NCBI RefSeq assembly: GCF_020252405.1 | Contig: NZ_JADCDA010000001.1 | Span: 1-64,000, forward strand | Reading direction: 5' to 3' | From: Aestuariivirga sp. | Lineage (GTDB): Bacteria; Pseudomonadota; Alphaproteobacteria; Rhizobiales; Aestuariivirgaceae | DNA: 64,000 nucleotides | Part shown: positions 8,386 to 35,671 of the stretch, piece by piece | How positions within the stretch are numbered: the stretch's first letter is position 1 | How the letters are laid out: each line of letters starts with the position of its first letter | Position numbers and translations under genes: made by a program | The notes under the pieces: generated by a model | Seen by the model: the letters and a program-made list of their open reading frames with translations, nothing else | What the model was told of the DNA's origin: nothing | Databases searched by the model: none

Positions 8386-9903
8386 ATGACTCCCGCCATC
8401 GAACTCTTACGGATCGACAAGCGCTTCGGCTCCGTCCACGCCAACAAGGACGTGTCGCTGGCGATCGCACCCGGCTCCATTCACGGCATCATCGGCGAGA
8501 ACGGCGCGGGCAAGTCGACGCTGATGTCCATCCTGTTCGGCTTCTATCAGGCCGACTCGGGCGAAATCCGGGTGAAGGGCCGGCCCGTCAGGATCCGCTC
8601 TTCCTCCGATGCCATCGCCCACGGCATCGGCATGGTCCACCAGCACTTCATGCTGGTCGAGCCCTTCACCGTTCTGGAGAACGTGGTGCTGGGCGCGGAG
8701 GGCGGCCTGCTCATCGGACCGGCGCTGGCCAGGGCCCGCGCCGAGCTCACGCGGCTCGCCAGGGACTATGAGCTCGAGGTCGACCCGGACGCCGTCGCCG
8801 GCGAATTGCCCGTCGGCCTGCAGCAGCGCGTCGAAATCCTGAAAGCCCTTTTCAGGGGCGCGGAGACCCTGATCCTCGACGAGCCCACCGGTGTCCTCAC
8901 GCCGGACGAGGCCCGCCACCTGTTCCGCATCCTCCGTACACTGAAGGACCAGGGCAAGACCGTCATCCTCATCACCCACAAGCTGCGCGAGATCATGGCC
9001 ATCACGGACCGCGTCTCGGTCATGCGCCGGGGCGAGCTTGTCGCCACGCGCGGGACGAAAGCCACCACCGTGGAGGAACTGGCCGAGCTGATGGTCGGCC
9101 GCCATGTGCTGCTGCGCGTCGAGAAGGGCCCCTCCAGGCCGGGCGAAACCGTGCTTGAGGTGAGGAACCTCACCTGGAAGGACGGGAAGGGCATCGCCCG
9201 GGTGGACAATGTCTCCTTCTCCGTCCGGAAGGGCGAGATCCTCGGCATCGCCGGGGTCTCCGGCAATGGCCAGTCGGAATTGCTCGACGTGATCGCCGGC
9301 ATCGCGCGGCCCGCCTCGGGCCAGGTGATCTTCGAGGGCAAGGACATCGGCATATTGGGCGACCCGCGCCACGTGCGCGCCGAGGGCCTCGCCCATGTGC
9401 CGGAGGACCGCCAGCACCGCGGCCTCATCGGCTCCTTCGATGCCGCCGAAAGCGCCATCCTCGGCTGGCACCATCTCGACCCGCTGGGCAAGGGCTTCCG
9501 CCTCGACCGCGGCAAGGTCGTGGCGCGGGCCAGGGCCTTGATGGAGGAGTTCGACGTCCGCCCGCCGGACCCGCTGCTGAGGTCCTCCAAGTTTTCCGGC
9601 GGCAATCAGCAGAAGCTGATCATCGCGCGCGAGATCACGTCCAACCCCGATCTCCTCATCGTCGGCCAGCCGACGCGTGGCGTCGATATCGGGGCCATCG
9701 AATACATCCACAAGCGCATCATCCAGCTGCGCGACGAGGGAAAGGCCGTGCTTCTCGTCTCCGTCGAGCTCGACGAAATCCGCTCGCTCTCCGACCGCAT
9801 CCTCGTCATGTTCGCCGGCCGCGTGATGGGCGAGCGCGGCCCGGGCGCTGACGAGCGCGAACTGGGCCTGCTCATGGCCGGCGTTGCGAAGGACGCCGCC
9901 TGA
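8386..9903 (+). CDS. Nucleoside-type ABC transporter ATP-binding protein (double ATPase)
   Basis: Energy-coupling protein of 505 residues with two tandem ABC domains, like RbsA/NupA/YufO. The first has Walker A GENGAGKS (37-44) and Walker B ETLILDEPTGVL with signature region LPVGLQQRVEI. The second has the degenerate Walker A GVSGNGQSE, as is normal for this family, and signature FSGGNQQKLIIARE. The pattern of one active and one degenerate site is therefore not a defect. It overlaps the next gene by one base (TGATG). Confidence 0.92.
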   Translation: MTPAIELLRIDKRFGSVHANKDVSLAIAPGSIHGIIGENGAGKSTLMSILFGFYQADSGEIRVKGRPVRIRSSSDAIAHGIGMVHQHFMLVEPFTVLENVVLGAEGGLLIGPALARARAELTRLARDYELEVDPDAVAGELPVGLQQRVEILKALFRGAETLILDEPTGVLTPDEARHLFRILRTLKDQGKTVILITHKLREIMAITDRVSVMRRGELVATRGTKATTVEELAELMVGRHVLLRVEKGPSRPGETVLEVRNLTWKDGKGIARVDNVSFSVRKGEILGIAGVSGNGQSELLDVIAGIARPASGQVIFEGKDIGILGDPRHVRAEGLAHVPEDRQHRGLIGSFDAAESAILGWHHLDPLGKGFRLDRGKVVARARALMEEFDVRPPDPLLRSSKFSGGNQQKLIIAREITSNPDLLIVGQPTRGVDIGAIEYIHKRIIQLRDEGKAVLLVSVELDEIRSLSDRILVMFAGRVMGERGPGADERELGLLMAGVAKDAA

Positions 9904-27866: not shown

Positions 27867-30728
27867 ATGTCGATCGTTACGTCGCTTACCACCAGGCAGA
27901 TTGCGACCCTGAGCACCACCGCCATCCGGGCGCTGTCGACGACCGACGTGCAGGCGCTCTCCACCACGCAGGTGGGCGCGCTGACGGCCTCGCAGATCAA
28001 TGCGATGGAGACGACCGACCTCACGACGCTCAGCACCGCGCAGGTGCAGGCGATCTCCACCACCGCCATCAAATCGCTCATCGCGGCCACCATCACCAAT
28101 CTGGCGGATACGCAGGCGGCGGCCCTCACCACGGGGCAGATCGGCCTGCTGCAGGCCTATGCCGTGGAAGCGCTCGAATCGACCGACGTGCAGGCCTGGT
28201 CCACCACCCAGCTCGGCGCTCTCACCTCCCGCCAGTTTGCCGGTCTCACCACCACGGCGCTCGCCGAATTCACCGACACGCAGCTCGGCCAGCTCACCTC
28301 CACCCAGCTGCGCGGCCTGACCACGAGCCAGATCAACCTTCTCGCCACCGCCCAGCTCAACGCCCTCAACATCGCCGATCTGTCGGCCACCCAGGTGCGC
28401 GGCATGACCTCGACGGCGGTCGCGGCGCTCTCCACCACGCAGGCGCAATCGCTCACCACCTCGCAGATTGCCGTGCTTTCCGCCGCCGGCGTCGAGGCCC
28501 TCGATTCGACGGAGATCCAGGGCTGGTCGACCACCCAGCTCGGCGCGCTCACCTCCCAGCAGCTGGGCGGGCTTTCCACCACCGCCATCGCCGACTTCTC
28601 GGACACCCAGATCGGCCTGCTGAATTCCACCCAGCTGCGCGGCCTCACCACGCAGCAGCTCAACAATCTCGGAACCACGCAGCTTAACGCCATCGACGTC
28701 ACCAGCCTGACGGCGACGCAGATCCGCGGCATGAACGCCACGGCCATCGATGCGCTTTCCACCACCCAGGCCCAGTCGCTCACCACCACGCAGATCGGCG
28801 CCATCTCGGTGACCGGCCTCGACGCGCTCACCTCCACCGAAATCCAGGGCTGGTCGACGACGCAGCTCAACGCCGTCTCCTCGCAGCAGCTGGCGGGCCT
28901 CACCACCACCGCGCTCGCCGATTTCTCCGACACGCAGCTGGGCCAGCTGACCGGCACGCAGGTCAAGGGCCTGACCTCCACCCAGCTCAACAACCTGGGC
29001 GCCACCCAGCTCAATGCGCTGAACGTCGCCGATCTCTCGGTGTCGCAGATCCGCAACATGAACGCGACCGCCATCGGCTCGCTGTCCAGCACGCAGGCCC
29101 AGGCGCTCGGCACGCAGCAGATCGCCGCGCTGAGCGCCGGCGGCCTCGGCGCGCTCGCCTCGACCGATATCCAGGCCTGGTCCACGACGCAGCTCGGCGC
29201 CATCACCTCGCAGCAGCTCGCGGGCCTCGGCACAACCGACATCGCGGACTTCTCGGACACGCAGATCGGCCAGCTTTCCTCCACCCAGGTCCGCGGCCTG
29301 ACGTCCACGCAGCTCAATAACCTCGGCGCCGCCCAGCTCAATGCGCTGAACGTCACCAGCCTCTCGGCGGCGCAGGTGACGGGCCTCTCCACCACCGCCA
29401 TCGGCAATCTCACCTCGACCCAGGCGCAGGGCTTCACCGTGACGCAAGTCGCGGCGCTGACCGCCACGGGACTGGGCAGCATCGCGAGCACCGACCTGCA
29501 GGCCTGGAGCACCACGCAGCTCGGCGCCATCACCACCCGCCAGGTGTCGCAGCTCACGACGACGGCGATCGCCAGCTTCTCCGATACGCAGCTGGGTCAG
29601 CTCACCTCGACGCAGGTGCGCGGACTTACCTCTTCCCAGATCAACACGCTCGGCACCACCCAGCTCAACGCCCTGAACGTGGCCGATCTCTCGACGGCGC
29701 AGGTGCGCGGCATGTCCTCCACCGCCCTCGATGCCTTGTCCACCACCCAGGCCCAGTCGCTGACCACCGCGCAGATCGCGGTACTCAACGCCACCGGCCT
29801 CTCCGCCCTGAGCTCGACGGAGCTTCAGGGCTGGTCGACGACGCAGCTCGGCGCCCTCACCTCGCAGCAGTTCGTCGGCATCGCGGCAACCGAGCTCCAG
29901 GATTTCTCCACCACCCAGCTCGGCAGCCTCACCTCCTCCCAGCTCCGCGGCCTCAACGCCACGCAGCTGAGCGGCCTCGACACGGCCTATCTGCGGGCCC
30001 TCGACGTCACCACGCTCTCGACCCAGCAGGTGGCGGGGCTCACCACCACGGCGGTGGGCAACCTCTCCAGCACCCAGGTGCAGGCGATGCTCACCGGCCA
30101 GATCGGGGCGCTCACGGCGGGCGGTCTCTCGGCCCTGGTCTCCACCGATATCCAGGCGTGGAACACCACGCAGCTCGGCGCGGTGACGGCGACCCAACTC
30201 GGCGGGCTGACCACCACGGAAATCTCCGACTTCTCCGACACCCAGATCGGGCTTCTCTCCACCACCCAGCTGCGCGGCTTCACCACGGGCCAGCTGAACA
30301 ACATGAGCTCCACGCAGATCGGCGTGCTCACGGCGTCCTCGCTCTCGACGGCGCAGATCGCGGGCCTGACCTCGACCGCGCTCGACAACTTCACGACGAC
30401 GCAGATCGGCACGCTCGATGCCGGCCAGTTCCGCGCCATCGCGCCCACGGCGCTCGACGGCCTCGACATCGCGGTGTTCCAGGGCCTCACCTCCACCCAG
30501 GCCGGTGCGCTCACCTCCGCGCAGGTCGCGGCGCTCAGCACCACCAACTTCGCGGCGCTCAACGAAACGACGGGCCTGCCGTCGCTCGCCACCACGGCCA
30601 TCGCCGGCATCACGACCGGCCAGATCGCCGCCTTGTCCACCACCCAGGCCAATGCCTTCACCTCAACCCAGATCGGGCTGATGAGCTCCGACCAGCTCAC
30701 CGCCCTGATCATCGCCTCCAACAGCTAA
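27867..30728 (+). CDS. Giant octapeptide-repeat protein, Ser/Thr-rich, function unknown
   Basis: A 953-residue protein built almost wholly of octapeptides of the form L-[ST]-T-T-Q-[ILV]-x-[AG]; I count about 113. Layout: a 6-residue start, 13 octads, then seven superunits of 109 residues, each 13 octads plus one 5-residue insert of the LN[IV]AD type, then about 80 residues ending LIIASNS. Each superunit opens at a Trp (codons at 28197, 28524, 28851, 29178, 29505, 29832, 30159). In the first unit 32 of 109 residues are Ser or Thr. There is no Cys or His and only two Lys. No signal peptide or membrane segment is visible. ATG 27867 has GGGGA upstream. A glycosyltransferase gene follows 18 bp later. 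The fold (a solenoid is likely) and role are unknown; a glycosylated surface or secreted structural protein is inferred. Confidence 0.88.
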   Translation: MSIVTSLTTRQIATLSTTAIRALSTTDVQALSTTQVGALTASQINAMETTDLTTLSTAQVQAISTTAIKSLIAATITNLADTQAAALTTGQIGLLQAYAVEALESTDVQAWSTTQLGALTSRQFAGLTTTALAEFTDTQLGQLTSTQLRGLTTSQINLLATAQLNALNIADLSATQVRGMTSTAVAALSTTQAQSLTTSQIAVLSAAGVEALDSTEIQGWSTTQLGALTSQQLGGLSTTAIADFSDTQIGLLNSTQLRGLTTQQLNNLGTTQLNAIDVTSLTATQIRGMNATAIDALSTTQAQSLTTTQIGAISVTGLDALTSTEIQGWSTTQLNAVSSQQLAGLTTTALADFSDTQLGQLTGTQVKGLTSTQLNNLGATQLNALNVADLSVSQIRNMNATAIGSLSSTQAQALGTQQIAALSAGGLGALASTDIQAWSTTQLGAITSQQLAGLGTTDIADFSDTQIGQLSSTQVRGLTSTQLNNLGAAQLNALNVTSLSAAQVTGLSTTAIGNLTSTQAQGFTVTQVAALTATGLGSIASTDLQAWSTTQLGAITTRQVSQLTTTAIASFSDTQLGQLTSTQVRGLTSSQINTLGTTQLNALNVADLSTAQVRGMSSTALDALSTTQAQSLTTAQIAVLNATGLSALSSTELQGWSTTQLGALTSQQFVGIAATELQDFSTTQLGSLTSSQLRGLNATQLSGLDTAYLRALDVTTLSTQQVAGLTTTAVGNLSSTQVQAMLTGQIGALTAGGLSALVSTDIQAWNTTQLGAVTATQLGGLTTTEISDFSDTQIGLLSTTQLRGFTTGQLNNMSSTQIGVLTASSLSTAQIAGLTSTALDNFTTTQIGTLDAGQFRAIAPTALDGLDIAVFQGLTSTQAGALTSAQVAALSTTNFAALNETTGLPSLATTAIAGITTGQIAALSTTQANAFTSTQIGLMSSDQLTALIIASNS
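28197..30485 (+). repeat. Seven tandem 327-bp coding repeats
   Basis: The superunit of the octapeptide protein repeats with a period of exactly 327 bp, with no insertion or deletion across seven units. Within it runs a 24-bp (8-codon) period interrupted once by a 15-bp insert. Units have diverged in sequence, so the spacing is conserved better than the bases. Confidence 0.9.
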
Positions 30729-30746
30729 CCGGGAGACCTGAGAGCC

Positions 30747-32732
30747 TTGTCATCCGCCATCGCCGCGCTGTTTCGTGACGCCGACATCCTCGAAGCCACG
30801 GAGGGCGCGGCGGCGGCCGCGGAACTCTACAGGCGGTGGGTGGCGCTCAACCCGGATGACCCGCATATCGCGCCCGCGCTGTTCAACATGGCCGTCGTGG
30901 CCCAGCGCAGCGGCGACCCCTATGACGCCATCAACGCGCTGCGCGCCGCGCTGAGGATCGACCCGGACTTCCACCCGCCCTACATCAATCTGGGCCGCGC
31001 GCTGGAGGATCTGGGTCAGACGGGCGATGCCGTCACGCAGTGGCTGGCCTTCGTCAACCGTCTGCCCGCCGTCAACGGCCCCACGCTCCGCCACAAGCTG
31101 ATCGCGCTGCACCAGCTGGGCCGCGTTCTCGAAGCCAACCATGCCGATGCTCCGGCGGAGGATGCGCTCCGCCAGGCCATCGATCTGTCGCCCGAAAATC
31201 CGCAGGCGGTGCAGCACTGGATCGCGCTCCGCCAGAGGCAATGCAAGTGGCCGGTGGTGCAGGGCTGGGACGGTGTCGATGCGAAGCGCCTCTTCGCCAA
31301 TATCTCGCCGCTGTCGGCGGCGGTGATGTTCGACGACCCGCTGTTCCAGCTCGCCCGCAATGCCGGCTATGCCCGCCAGTCCATCGCCCGGCCGCCGCAT
31401 GTCCACGATCACGCGGGCCGCCCCGCCGAGCGGCCGGCCCGGCTCAAGATCGGCTATGTGTCCTCCGACCTCCGCGAGCATGCGGTGGGCTTCGGCCTCG
31501 CCGAGGCGATGGAACTGCACAGCCGCGGCCGCTTCGACATCCATGCCTATTACTGCGGCATCCCGCGCGAGGATGCCACACGCGCCCGCATCCGCGCCGC
31601 GGTGGAGCACTGGACGGACATCACGGGTGTTTCGGACGATGCGGCGGCGGCGCGGATTGCGGCCGATGGCATCGACATTCTTGTCGACGTCAACGGCTAC
31701 ACGCGCGATGCCCGCACCGCGGTCTTCGCGCGGCGTCCCGCGCCCATCGCCGCCAACTGGTTCGGCTTTCCGGGCAGCATGGGCACGCCCTATCATCACT
31801 ATGTCATCGCCGACGCCAATGTCGTCCCCGAGGGCAGCGAGATTTACTTTGCCGAGCGGGTGCTGCGTCTTCCCTGCTACCAGCCCAACGACCGCAAGCG
31901 CCCCATCGCGGCGGAACCGCCGCAGCGCGGTGCTGAAGGCCTGCCGGAGCAGGGCTTCGTCTTCTGCTGCCTCAACGGCACGCAGAAGATCACGCCGCAG
32001 ATCTTCGGCGCCTGGATGAAAATCCTCGCCGCGGTGGAGGGCAGTGTGCTGTGGCTGCTCGATTCCGCCGCCGACGCCAATGCGCGGCTGCGCGCCATGG
32101 CGGCGGCAACCGGCATCGCGCCGGAGCGGCTGTGCTTCGCGCCAAAGCGCCCCAATCCGCGGCATCTGGCGCGCTATGCGCTGGCCGATCTTTTCCTCGA
32201 CACCTTCCCCTATGGCGCCCACACCACCGCGTCCGACTCAATGTGGATGGGAACGCCCGTGCTGACGCTGGAGGGCCGGGGCTTCGCGGCCCGCGTCTGC
32301 GCCGGGCTGGTGAAATCCGCCGGCATGCCGGACCTCGTCTGCACCAGCCTCGAGGACTACGTCTCGCGCGCCATCGCCATCGCCCAGGCGCCGGGGGCTG
32401 CGGCGGACCTGCGCCGCCGGCTGCGCGCCAACCGCGAACACGCCGCGCTGTTCGACACGCCGCAACTGGTGAAGAGCCTCGAAGCCCTCTACGACCGCAT
32501 GTGGGAGGAGTTCCGCATGGGCGACCTGCCGACGCCGAACCTCGTCAATCTTCCGGTCTATGAGGAGATCGGCCTCGGCCTCATCGAGTCCCGCCAGGGC
32601 GACAGCGTGCCGCCGGAACTCTATGCCGCCGAACTTGCCCGCTGGATGGTGCATGAGCCGCTCATTGCCGACGGGCGGCTCCTGAAACCCGCCGCGGTCG
32701 GGGCGCCCTCGCTGAGGCGCGCAGCGGCATAA
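30747..32732 (+). CDS. TPR-containing GT41 glycosyltransferase (OGT/SPINDLY type)
   Basis: Predicted cytoplasmic protein O-glycosyltransferase of 661 residues. Residues about 20-170 form TPR helices (LYRRWVALNPDDPHIAPALF, ALRAALRIDPDFHPPYINLG). From 232 onward it matches the OGT catalytic region: RLKIGYVSSDLREHAVGF (H245 in the place of the OGT histidine motif), VDVNGYTRDARTAVFARRPAP, FVFCCLNGTQKITP (K414, matching the catalytic lysine K842 of human OGT), and FPYGAHTTASDSMWMGTP (H492-T494, the UDP-phosphate loop). The start is TTG with GGGAG 11 nt upstream. It follows the octapeptide protein by 18 bp, so they form one unit. The donor sugar cannot be read from sequence; the neighbour is the obvious candidate acceptor. 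Confidence 0.9.
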   Translation: MSSAIAALFRDADILEATEGAAAAAELYRRWVALNPDDPHIAPALFNMAVVAQRSGDPYDAINALRAALRIDPDFHPPYINLGRALEDLGQTGDAVTQWLAFVNRLPAVNGPTLRHKLIALHQLGRVLEANHADAPAEDALRQAIDLSPENPQAVQHWIALRQRQCKWPVVQGWDGVDAKRLFANISPLSAAVMFDDPLFQLARNAGYARQSIARPPHVHDHAGRPAERPARLKIGYVSSDLREHAVGFGLAEAMELHSRGRFDIHAYYCGIPREDATRARIRAAVEHWTDITGVSDDAAAARIAADGIDILVDVNGYTRDARTAVFARRPAPIAANWFGFPGSMGTPYHHYVIADANVVPEGSEIYFAERVLRLPCYQPNDRKRPIAAEPPQRGAEGLPEQGFVFCCLNGTQKITPQIFGAWMKILAAVEGSVLWLLDSAADANARLRAMAAATGIAPERLCFAPKRPNPRHLARYALADLFLDTFPYGAHTTASDSMWMGTPVLTLEGRGFAARVCAGLVKSAGMPDLVCTSLEDYVSRAIAIAQAPGAAADLRRRLRANREHAALFDTPQLVKSLEALYDRMWEEFRMGDLPTPNLVNLPVYEEIGLGLIESRQGDSVPPELYAAELARWMVHEPLIADGRLLKPAAVGAPSLRRAAA

Positions 32733-32776
32733 CGGCCCCGCCGCGCTTCGGCCTGAAGAAGCGGCCATGTTGCGCC

Positions 32777-32826
32777 AGAGCAGGTTTCGGTTCAGTGGAA
32801 TCGAAACCTGCTCTGTTTATTTATTT
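32777..32826 (+). terminator. Rho-independent terminator after the glycosyltransferase
   Basis: A 17-bp stem (AGAGCAGGTTTCGGTTC with GAATCGAAACCTGCTCT, loop AGTG) is followed by a T-rich tract GTTTATTTATTT. It lies 44 bp after the stop and closes the two-gene unit. The stem resembles an intergenic repeat seen in related genomes, so it may be both. Confidence 0.75.
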
Positions 32827-32897: not shown

Positions 32898-34067
32898 ATG
32901 GGGGAGAAGATGGGGATTGAACTGCCGGCGGCCACGCTGGAAAACTGGCGTGAGCACCCCCACAGCATCTGGGGCTTCACCCATGTCGACAGCCTGATCC
33001 CCACCGCTCCCATTCCCACCGCGCCGCCGCCCGGCACGCTGCGGCCGGGAAAACCCCTCGACCTTGCGCGCCTTGCCATCGTCTGGGGCGGCGGCCGCCG
33101 CAGCGCCGAGGCGGCGCTGGAGGAAACCCACACCGATGGGTTCATGGTGCTGAAGGACGGCGAGGTGGCCGCCGAGCGCCTGATCAACCAGACGGCAACG
33201 GACCGCCACATCGTCTTCTCGGTCAGCAAGTCGATCACCGCCGCGCTTGCGGGCATCCTCGTCACGGAAGGCAAGCTCGATCCGGACGCTCCCGTGTCGC
33301 GCTACGTGCCGGAGGTCGAAGGCTCGGCCTATGCCGATGCGACCCTGCGCCATGTGCTCGATATGTCGGTCAGCATCCGCTTTGTCGAGGACTATCTCGA
33401 TCCTTTGGGCGATGTGGCGCGCTACCGCGCCGCCATGGGCTGGAATCCGCCGGGCGCCATCGCCAGCGCCGATGGCATCAATGCCTTCATCACCAGCCTG
33501 CCCAAGGCCGATCATCCGCATGGCCGAAGCTTCCGCTATGTCTCGCCCAACACCGACCTCCTCGGCTGGATCATCGAGCGCGCCGCGGGCGAAAACTACG
33601 CCAGCCTGCTGTCACGCCTTATCTGGCAGCCCATGCACATGGCGCGGGACGCCTTCATCACCATTGACCGGCACGGCGCGCCGCGCGCCGCCGGGGGTCT
33701 CTGCATCAGTCTCGGCGACATGGCGCGTTTCGGCGAGATGATGCGCCTCAAGGGCCGCTTCAACGGCCAGCGCATCGTGCCGGAGGAATGGATCAACGAC
33801 ATCCTCCACAACGGCGACCATGCCCAGTGGTCGCGCGGCGAGATGGTGAACCTCTTCCCCGATGGCCGCTACCGCTCCAAGTGGTATGTGCCGGAGCCGT
33901 CGTCTCGCGTGCTCTGCGCCATCGGCATCCACGGCCAGTGGATCTACATCGACTATGATGCCGGCATGGTGGCGGTGAAGCAGTCCTCCCAGCCCATCCC
34001 CGCCGACGGGGCGCTGGACAATCTCACTTATGCGATGTTCCAGGCCATTGCTGACGAGCTGAGATGA
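32898..34067 (+). CDS. Serine hydrolase, beta-lactamase fold, NylB-like
   Basis: A 389-residue member of the class C beta-lactamase/esterase/6-aminohexanoate-dimer hydrolase fold. The catalytic SxxK is SVSK (S108, K111), close to the positions of NylB. The Tyr motif region reads [20 protein letters not shown], as in NylB-type enzymes. The third motif region is [11 protein letters not shown]. No signal peptide is seen, so it is probably cytoplasmic. Substrate is unknown; an amide or ester is likely. It overlaps the next gene by four bases (ATGA), which links it to the formamidase-like protein. Confidence 0.85.
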
Positions 34068-35671
34068 GCCCGGAGCGCGACGGGGCCTGGCGGCGCGAGG
34101 CGGTGCTCGGCAACTATGCCGAGCGGCCCTTTCGCACACCGCCCGCCCGGCCCAGCATCTGGAGCTATTGCGATCGGCTCTCCTATGCGCCGGGCGAGGT
34201 GGTGAAGGTCAGCGTCTGCACCAATGCGCCGCGCTACGACGTCGAGGTCATCCGCGATGGGCTGACACCGGTCACGGTCTTCGCGCGCGGCGGCCTCAAG
34301 GGCGAATGGCGCGGCACGCCGGATGATTGCTCCGTCACCGGCTGCGGCTGGCCCGTCTCCCTGGGGATTCCCGTGCCGCCGGACTGGCCGTCGGGCGGCT
34401 ACATCCTGCGCAGCCGCGGCGGCGGCGACATGCACGAGCATCTCTTCATCGTCCGCCCGCGTCCTGGCGCCGACAAGCGCGGCCGCCTGCTGCTCATCGC
34501 CGCCACCGCCACATGGACCGCCTATAATGACTGGGGCGGCTCCAATCATTATCAGGGCTGTTGCGGCCCCAATGGCGACCGCTTCTCGCCCGTGCTCAGC
34601 ACGCTGCGCCCGCTGGCCAGGGGCTTTGTCTCCTTGCCGCCCGATGCGCCGCGCGCCGTGCTGCTGGAGGATCCGCCGATCAACTCGGAGCCGCGCTACC
34701 CGCATATGGAATGGGCCTATGCCAATGGCTATTCCAAGAAATACATGTCCTCCGGCTGGGCCAGCTTCGAGCGCCACTTCGTCACCTGGGCCGGGGCCGA
34801 GGGCTATGCGCTTGACATCATCAGCCAGACCGACCTGCACTACCGCCCGGACCTGATCGAGGGCTATGCCTGCATCGCCCTCGTCGGCCATGACGAATAC
34901 TGGTCCTGGGAGATGCGCGATGCCATCGATGCTTACGTTGAGGGGGGCGGCCGCATCGCCCGCTTCGCCGGCAATTTCATGTGGCAGATCCGGCTCTCGG
35001 ACGAAGGCCGCACCCAGACCTGCTACAAATACATTGCGCGGGACGAAGACCCATTCATGCGGGAGGGCCCGCGTGAGCGCGTGACCGAATCCTGGGAAGC
35101 GCCCGGGATCGGCCGCCCCGGTTCCGCCAGCTTCGGCCTCAACGCCACGCACGGGCTTTATGCCAGCTGGTCGGGCTGCTCCCCGCGCGGCGCCAAGGGC
35201 TTTCCTGTCTACCGGCCGGAGCACTGGGCCTTCGCCAAAACCGGCCTCTATTATGGCGATATACTGGGCGGCGCGTCGCGCATTTTCGGATATGAGGTGG
35301 ATGGCCTTCCCTATGAGATCCGCGGCGGACTGCCATATGTGGCCGACCCGTCGCTCGCGCCGCAAGGCATCGAGATTCTCGCGCTGGGCATCGCCTCCAC
35401 CATCGAGGAGGGGTCAACCATCCTGCCGGGCCGGAGCTTCCTTGGCGCCGAGGACGGCGAATATGTCGCCTCGGTCCTCACCGGCCGCAAGGACAGGGCG
35501 GCGGTCGAGCAGACCAAGCGCGGCTGCGGCATGATCGTGAACTTCCCCAAGGGCCGGGGCGAGGTCTTCCACGCCGGCTCCAGCGACTGGATCATGGGCC
35601 TCACCCGCAAGGATGCGATCGTCGCGCAGGTCACCCGCAACGTGCTCGACCGCTATCTGGGACGCGCTTAA
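34064..35671 (+). CDS. N,N-dimethylformamidase large-subunit-like protein
   Basis: A 535-residue protein resembling the C-terminal part of the N,N-dimethylformamidase beta subunit (DMFA2_C family), an iron-dependent amidohydrolase. Recognisable parts are an N-terminal Ig-like strand region ([20 protein letters not shown]), [16 protein letters not shown], and the catalytic core [20 protein letters not shown] followed by NFMWQIRL. Characterised large subunits are longer and pair with a small subunit; none is encoded nearby. Translational coupling to the NylB-like hydrolase suggests a joint role in breaking down an amide. Assignment is by pattern, so moderate confidence. Confidence 0.7.

Follow-up and report, generated by a model that had tools for sequence, protein, structure and literature searches.

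The window analysed here comprises the first 64,000 nucleotides of contig NZ_JADCDA010000001.1 of Aestuariivirga sp., in which dnaA-dnaN-recF-gyrB are followed, on the same strand, by a gene encoding an octad-repeat protein and a gene encoding a glycosyltransferase (Table 1). The position of this pair downstream of gyrB is shared with two related loci (L037 and L038). The initial annotation had described a 953-residue protein made of Ser/Thr-rich octads, a TPR/GT41 gene starting 18 bp after its stop codon and a terminator closing the pair, and this description was borne out on all counts: the first ORF was matched by PF20080 and the second by PF13844 and TPR families, the gap between stop and start measures 18 bp, and a stable hairpin with a T-rich tail was found behind the second gene. 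Further downstream, positions 34064-35671 encode a protein whose C-terminal domain resembles the N,N-dimethylformamidase beta-subunit (PF20254); this gene lies downstream of a beta-lactamase-fold gene, and both are retained near the pair in the relatives L074 and L075.

Table 1. Features of the octad-repeat/glycosyltransferase locus (window coordinates)
Feature	Position	Strand	Basis
Octad-repeat (ALTTAQ) protein of 953 aa, proposed as dedicated acceptor of glycans	27867..30728	+	ATG start; PF20080
Super-repeat of 109 residues in seven copies, each with 13 octads and a half unit of 5 residues	28170..30458	+	Autocorrelation, identity 0.515 at lag 109
Likely ribosome binding site (GGGAG) for the enzyme, between the two genes and ahead of TTG	30731..30735	+	Sequence read
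OGT-type glycosyltransferase of 661 aa with TPR and GT41 parts; member of group A in the ALTTAQ-linked clade	30747..32732	+	TTG start; PF13844; tree
N-terminal TPR region, approximately residues 7-160, proposed substrate-recognition part	30765..31226	+	Pfam TPR_2, TPR_12, TPR_17, TPR_14
His245, corresponding to His498 of human OGT	31479..31481	+	Alignment; His in all 91 group A and all 10 group B enzymes
Lys414, corresponding to Lys842 of human OGT	31986..31988	+	Alignment; Lys in all 91 group A and all 10 group B enzymes
OGT HTT-x-x-D motif for binding of the donor phosphate (His492-Thr493-Thr494 ... Asp497)	32220..32237	+	Alignment
Intrinsic terminator closing the pair	~32776..32826	+	18-bp stem, 40-nt hairpin, -31 kcal/mol, then TTTATTTATTT (T-rich tail)

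The repeat protein is built of more than 100 threonine-rich, eight-residue units that conform to the octad logo of ALTTAQ proteins, A-L-[ST]-[TS]-T-Q-[ILV]-[AG]. In a Pfam search, PF20080 (ALTTAQ_rpt) matched the protein in 29 stretches with E = 5e-122 and 398 bits, against a gathering score of 26.4; the octad repeat is far beyond chance and is already named in Pfam as the ALTTAQ repeat. Autocorrelation analysis recovered the period of eight (identity of 0.28 at lag 8) together with a stronger signal at lag 109, which corresponds to the super-repeat listed in Table 1. Serine and threonine account for 283 of the 953 residues (29.7%), lysine and proline are nearly absent and cysteine is absent. 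Both genes of the pair were shown to be under purifying selection (dN/dS of ~0.2). Above-cut-off Pfam matches of ALTTAQ proteins to LRR_EndoS, DUF4351, CAAP1 and SAM_3 were taken as repeat artefacts; such matches occur on the window's own repeat protein and on L198, L200, L224 and L225, are probably false and repeat-driven, and could mislead annotation. The heme-utilisation labels carried by database records of ALTTAQ proteins were found to be without support, and no relatives of the repeat protein were found in the phage records searched.

The second gene encodes an enzyme with the domain combination of OGT-type GT41 glycosyltransferases, as PF13844 was matched with E = 3e-69 (234 bits, cut-off 25) and several TPR families scored above their cut-offs at the N-terminus. 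Its best relatives in the PDB are human OGT (1.6e-82) and Xanthomonas OGT (XcOGT, 2e-78). In addition to the residues listed in Table 1, His473 aligns with human OGT His901, while the HTT triplet at 492-494 aligns with residues 920-922 and Asp497 with Asp925; these positions (His498, Lys842, His901, HTT 920-922 and Asp925 in human OGT) were taken from the alignment. Among the group A enzymes defined below, His492 and Asp497 are invariant and Thr494 is found in 90 of 91. As judged from alignment, the catalytic and donor-binding residues of OGT are intact in the window's enzyme and conserved in nearly all 91 group A enzymes.

To examine the conservation of the pair, an alignment of ten linked enzymes was scanned against one genome per species (~85,000 species) and the 80 nearest loci were analysed. 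An ALTTAQ ORF adjoins the GT41 homologue in 77 of these loci, and a severed ALTTAQ C-terminus at a contig edge (L134) brings the total to 78. The repeat gene precedes the enzyme gene, in the same direction, in 62 loci (the usual order, with a median gap of 118 bp), while the two genes are divergent in 12 and in the order enzyme to repeat in 3, with no ALTTAQ ORF found in the remaining 3. One exception (L112) keeps a short ALTTAQ relic beside its GT41 gene. The relic, at 9453-9776 on the minus strand of this Rhizobium giardinii locus, points to loss of the repeat protein at a locus that retains the mutase gene.

Conversely, none of 40 control regions around other strong GT41 genes, drawn mostly from genomes without ALTTAQ proteins, contained an ALTTAQ gene (Fisher p ~1e-28), and no ALTTAQ gene adjoins the other GT41 genes of ALTTAQ-bearing genomes (L169, L193, L201 and L202). 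Adjoining ALTTAQ and GT41 genes were also observed in genomes G068, G135, G010, G065, G137, G323, G350 and G418, in the laboratory strain Cereibacter sphaeroides 2.4.1, whose plasmid pA carries a GT41 gene of group B (defined below) together with the repeat-protein gene and a type I exporter, and on plasmids from Niveispirillum, Pseudoroseomonas, Cereibacter, Rhizobium and Rhodovastum. Both families are also represented in Caulobacter vibrioides. Three ALTTAQ-positive genomes from the first samples (G121, G189 and G289) have no linked GT41 gene, so the repeat also occurs without the enzyme. Within the window's genus, both genes are present in 5 and both absent from 8 of 13 genomes (Fisher p = 0.0008, a value that is indicative as the genomes are related), and seven other members of the family were found to carry neither the ALTTAQ protein nor its partner enzyme. 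Neighbourhood conservation, the absence of which would have refuted the initial annotation, thus holds in 78 of 80 homologous loci and on plasmids against none of 40 controls, and together with the concordant presence and absence in the genus it supports the main point of that annotation, the dedicated two-gene pair. In four genomes of family f240 of the phylum (G560, G606, G609 and G629), up to 54 GT41 domain matches per genome were observed, along with open frames of up to 3781 aa that contain several GT41 domains and ALTTAQ proteins of ~5000 aa.

A phylogenetic tree of 113 GT41 proteins placed the linked enzymes in one clade (SH-aLRT 95), 59 of whose 63 members are ALTTAQ-linked; the linked/unlinked label changes 4 times on the tree, compared with 38 times when labels were shuffled. 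The clade comprises two subclades, the larger of which (group A) includes the window's enzyme. Roseomonas and Niveispirillum relatives carry group B in tandem with group A, and Cereibacter and Rhodovastum have group B by itself; a group B gene was found as the second GT41 gene beside the first at L094, L101, L102, L108, L030, L031 and L195. Group B enzymes retain the equivalents of His245, Lys414 and Asp497, while Tyr, Gly and Val/Ile replace His473, His492 and Thr494 (OGT His901, His920 and Thr922), respectively. These replacements suggest that group B uses a different donor, perhaps for a second sugar.

Genes for sugar-nucleotide enzymes were associated with the pair in other lineages. A UDP-glucuronate decarboxylase (UDP-xylose synthase, UXS) gene, the identity of which was confirmed by similarity to human UXS1 (E = 1e-127), lies beside 18 loci, often tens to hundreds of bases away, and a UDP-galactopyranose mutase (Glf; identity likewise confirmed) gene lies beside 15, mostly in Rhizobiaceae. 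The two are mutually exclusive, as no locus carries both (loci among L030-L196). At L077, among the closest relatives outside the genus, the repeat gene is followed by the enzyme gene and, after a gap of 31 bp, by UXS. Because UXS or Glf genes adjoin the pair, UDP-xylose or UDP-Galf probably serves as donor in these lineages, be it to attach the first sugar or to extend it. Methyltransferase genes were also found near linked loci, and no sugar gene lies beside the window's own pair.

Furthermore, HlyD-type adaptor genes were found beside 18 of 95 linked loci compared with 1 of 50 controls (p = 0.003), and ABC exporter genes occur in the same places. The f240 order is repeat, HlyD, ABC, GT41, and at L101 the ABC, HlyD, repeat, GT41-A and GT41-B genes form one run. 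This linkage makes export of the repeat protein likely in some lineages. No HlyD gene lies beside the window's pair. In its genome, the linked type I ABC exporter was matched by ABC transporters only from residue 167 on, so that no clear, full-length homologue was found, and no HlyD adaptor scored above the curated cut-off. ALTTAQ genes were observed among flagellar export or flagellin genes at L034, L146 and L197; a flagellar export route, prompted by these loci, was dropped since such neighbours are rare, with flagellin genes beside 4 of 95 ALTTAQ loci compared with 7 of 50 controls.

Structure prediction of the repeat protein using AlphaFold2 returned an all-helical alpha-solenoid with one short helix per octad (mean pLDDT of 87), the global shape of which is uncertain (pTM 0.49). 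In the model, the helix spans octad positions 4-8, with position 3 as N-cap, Q6 at N3, and L2 and I/L/V7 as a hydrophobic pair; the reading of N-cap and N3 residues as a capping box is established for helices. Foldseek comparison yielded long HEAT-type solenoids at TM-scores near 0.1, which signify only 'alpha-solenoid', and a loose shape match to mesothelin (probability 1.0, TM-score of 0.35 on the target). The closest PDB sequence is that of HeliScrew4 (9zem), an apparently designed protein for which a literature search returned no paper, with octads LTPEQIAA or LSPDKIAA. A beta-solenoid or ice-nucleation-like fold, hinted at by the period of 8/16 and by record annotations, was abandoned in view of the all-helical prediction and the HeliScrew4 match. 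HeliScrew4 shares the octad pattern at the level of sequence, including the N-cap hydroxyl (L-[ST]-P-E-Q), but has Pro at position 4 and Glu/Asp at position 5 where the linked proteins have Thr/Ser, which implies that this octad repeat needs a hydroxyl at position 3 only and none at positions 4 and 5.

In the proteins compared, hydroxyls at positions 4 and 5 vary with linkage to the enzyme gene. Across 87 GT41-linked ALTTAQ proteins, Ser/Thr occupies these positions in 68% of cases on average, compared with 31, 31, 25, 41 and 62% in five unlinked proteins (Mann-Whitney p = 0.0013, for five unlinked proteins of which two are alike, and uncorrected for kinship), while position 3 did not differ between linked and unlinked proteins. 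The lowest of the unlinked values belongs to L224, from a genome (G869) without any GT41 match, and the highest to L197, which keeps these hydroxyls though not adjacent to an enzyme gene and has a linked GT41 gene elsewhere in its genome. Among three orthologues from the genus, the hydroxyl was lost in 12 of 248 Ser/Thr comparisons at positions 4 and 5, compared with 13 of 30 at position 1. The unlinked ALTTAQ proteins may form a separate subfamily, and Thr/Ser at helix positions N1 and N2 may have structural value too; the contrast between linked and unlinked proteins is nevertheless the best evidence in the sequences for candidate sugar attachment positions. That four of the five unlinked proteins have mostly lost Thr/Ser at positions 4 and 5 while retaining position 3 lends support to the proposal that the repeat protein is a dedicated acceptor.

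As the same partnership recurs in nearly 100 distantly related bacteria, among Alphaproteobacteria and beyond, the repeat protein is very probably the dedicated, putative sugar acceptor of the neighbouring GT41 enzyme. We consider it likely that the pair constitutes a dedicated cassette for cytoplasmic protein O-glycosylation in which the paired Thr/Ser of the octads would be the acceptors, a reading consistent with the conserved gene pair, the enzyme clade, the active site, the predicted fold, the covariation of positions 4 and 5 with the enzyme and the linkage to sugar genes. The repeat protein would fold into a long alpha-solenoid in which each octad contributes one five-residue helix, capped by position 3 and by Q6 at N3, with L2 and I/L/V7 in the core. 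The hydroxyls at positions 4 and 5, in the first helical turn, would then provide one or two acceptors per octad, regularly spaced on the rod; the TPR part of the enzyme would recognise the solenoid and the OGT-type active site would transfer the sugar, with a UDP-sugar as donor. Some other lineages have a putative donor module linked to the pair (UDP-xylose synthase or UDP-galactopyranose mutase); there, group B GT41 enzymes, as second GT41, and methyltransferases may elaborate the glycan, and a type I exporter may carry the product out.

Alternatively, the repeat protein could bind the TPR part as a scaffold, activator or decoy, with the enzyme glycosylating other cytoplasmic proteins, for example flagellin or targets of general O-glycosylation. 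In its favour, TPR domains serve as binding modules in general, a few flagellar gene clusters contain linked loci (L034, L146 and L197), and Caulobacter flagellins are modified by FlmG, which is likewise a TPR glycosyltransferase (PMC7591256); yet flagellar neighbours occur at few linked loci, and it would be left unexplained why most unlinked proteins have lost Thr/Ser at positions 4 and 5, which renders this alternative unlikely. Somewhat less probable still is a purely structural role of the Ser/Thr richness, in helix capping or solenoid solubility, with the linkage having another cause, for example an enzyme that builds a surface glycan bound by the repeat protein. The N-cap at position 3 and the capping box with Q6 indicate that the pattern is partly structural, and the nearby UDP-sugar and methyltransferase genes would suit a surface-polysaccharide locus. 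Such a role is at odds with the Pro and Glu of the HeliScrew4 octad and with the unlinked ALTTAQ proteins, largely devoid of Thr/Ser at positions 4 and 5, and those GT41 enzymes for which a characterisation was found in papers or structures (OGT, SPINDLY and HMW1C) modify proteins. N-glycosylation of Asn in the repeat protein, modelled on HMW1C, a GT41 enzyme with a dedicated adhesin substrate (HMW1), and on the weak similarity of the window's enzyme to NGT, is highly improbable and was rejected on composition and kinship, given that Asn makes up 1.7% and Ser plus Thr 29.5% of 75 ALTTAQ proteins and that the enzyme resembles OGT (1e-82) much more closely than HMW1C (3e-7) and reaches 34 bits against the cut-off of 1000 of NCBIfam NF049992 (HMW1C/NGT).

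The proposed dedicated O-glycosylation of the repeat protein can be compared with several known systems. Human, Xanthomonas and Thermobaculum OGT have in common with the window's enzyme a fold of TPR and GT41 parts as well as the catalytic residues, and to our knowledge none of them has a dedicated repeat partner. Dedicated enzyme-substrate pairs are already known (HMW1C/HMW1, FlmG/flagellin and the serine-rich repeat glycoproteins), as are OGT-type GT41 enzymes in bacteria; 136 of 385 sampled genomes of the window's class (about a third) encode GT41 enzymes. The HMW1C/HMW1 system of Haemophilus likewise combines a GT41 enzyme with one large dedicated substrate, but HMW1C is only distantly similar to the window's enzyme and its modification is N-linked to Asn sequons, involves two-partner secretion and concerns an unrelated substrate (PMC3012730). 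In Caulobacter, FlmG resembles the present enzyme in description: it is a cytoplasmic TPR-glycosyltransferase of an alphaproteobacterium in which the TPR part confers substrate choice and modification is O-linked, but its substrates are flagellins and its sugar is pseudaminic acid (PMC7591256). Fap1 and other serine-rich repeat glycoproteins, together with Gtf enzymes and accessory Sec, are similar in having a repeat-rich Ser/Thr acceptor, dedicated glycosyltransferases and a linked exporter, and different in being Gram-positive and in their enzymes, repeat and exporter (PMC6973325). By analogy, the ALTTAQ/GT41 system would work like these systems yet has none of their parts in common.

In the literature searched, outside the scope of which subscription papers and preprints mostly fell, no function is recorded for ALTTAQ/PF20080 and no mention of it was found; a search on OGT/GT41 together with repeats, secretion or neighbourhood returned no paper on the ALTTAQ/GT41 pairing. 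For Thermobaculum OGT (TtOGT), activity and substrates could not be found (PMC4683255), and the papers found name no natural substrate for a bacterial OGT-type enzyme. The pairing described here supplies a candidate substrate, candidate acceptor positions and candidate donor sugars. We regard as evenly balanced the broader possibility of a widespread, new bacterial glycoprotein system, in which enzymes of a co-evolved OGT clade would densely O-glycosylate octad rods on Thr-Thr dyads in the cytoplasm, an exchangeable donor gene (UXS or Glf) would determine the sugar, and some rods would leave the cell through a dedicated type I exporter to form a glycan-coated surface fibre. If dedicated glycosylation of the repeat protein is true, bacterial OGT-type enzymes would have, in the rod, their first defined natural substrate, and the octad solenoid would provide a simple, regular scaffold for glycans and glycoengineering.
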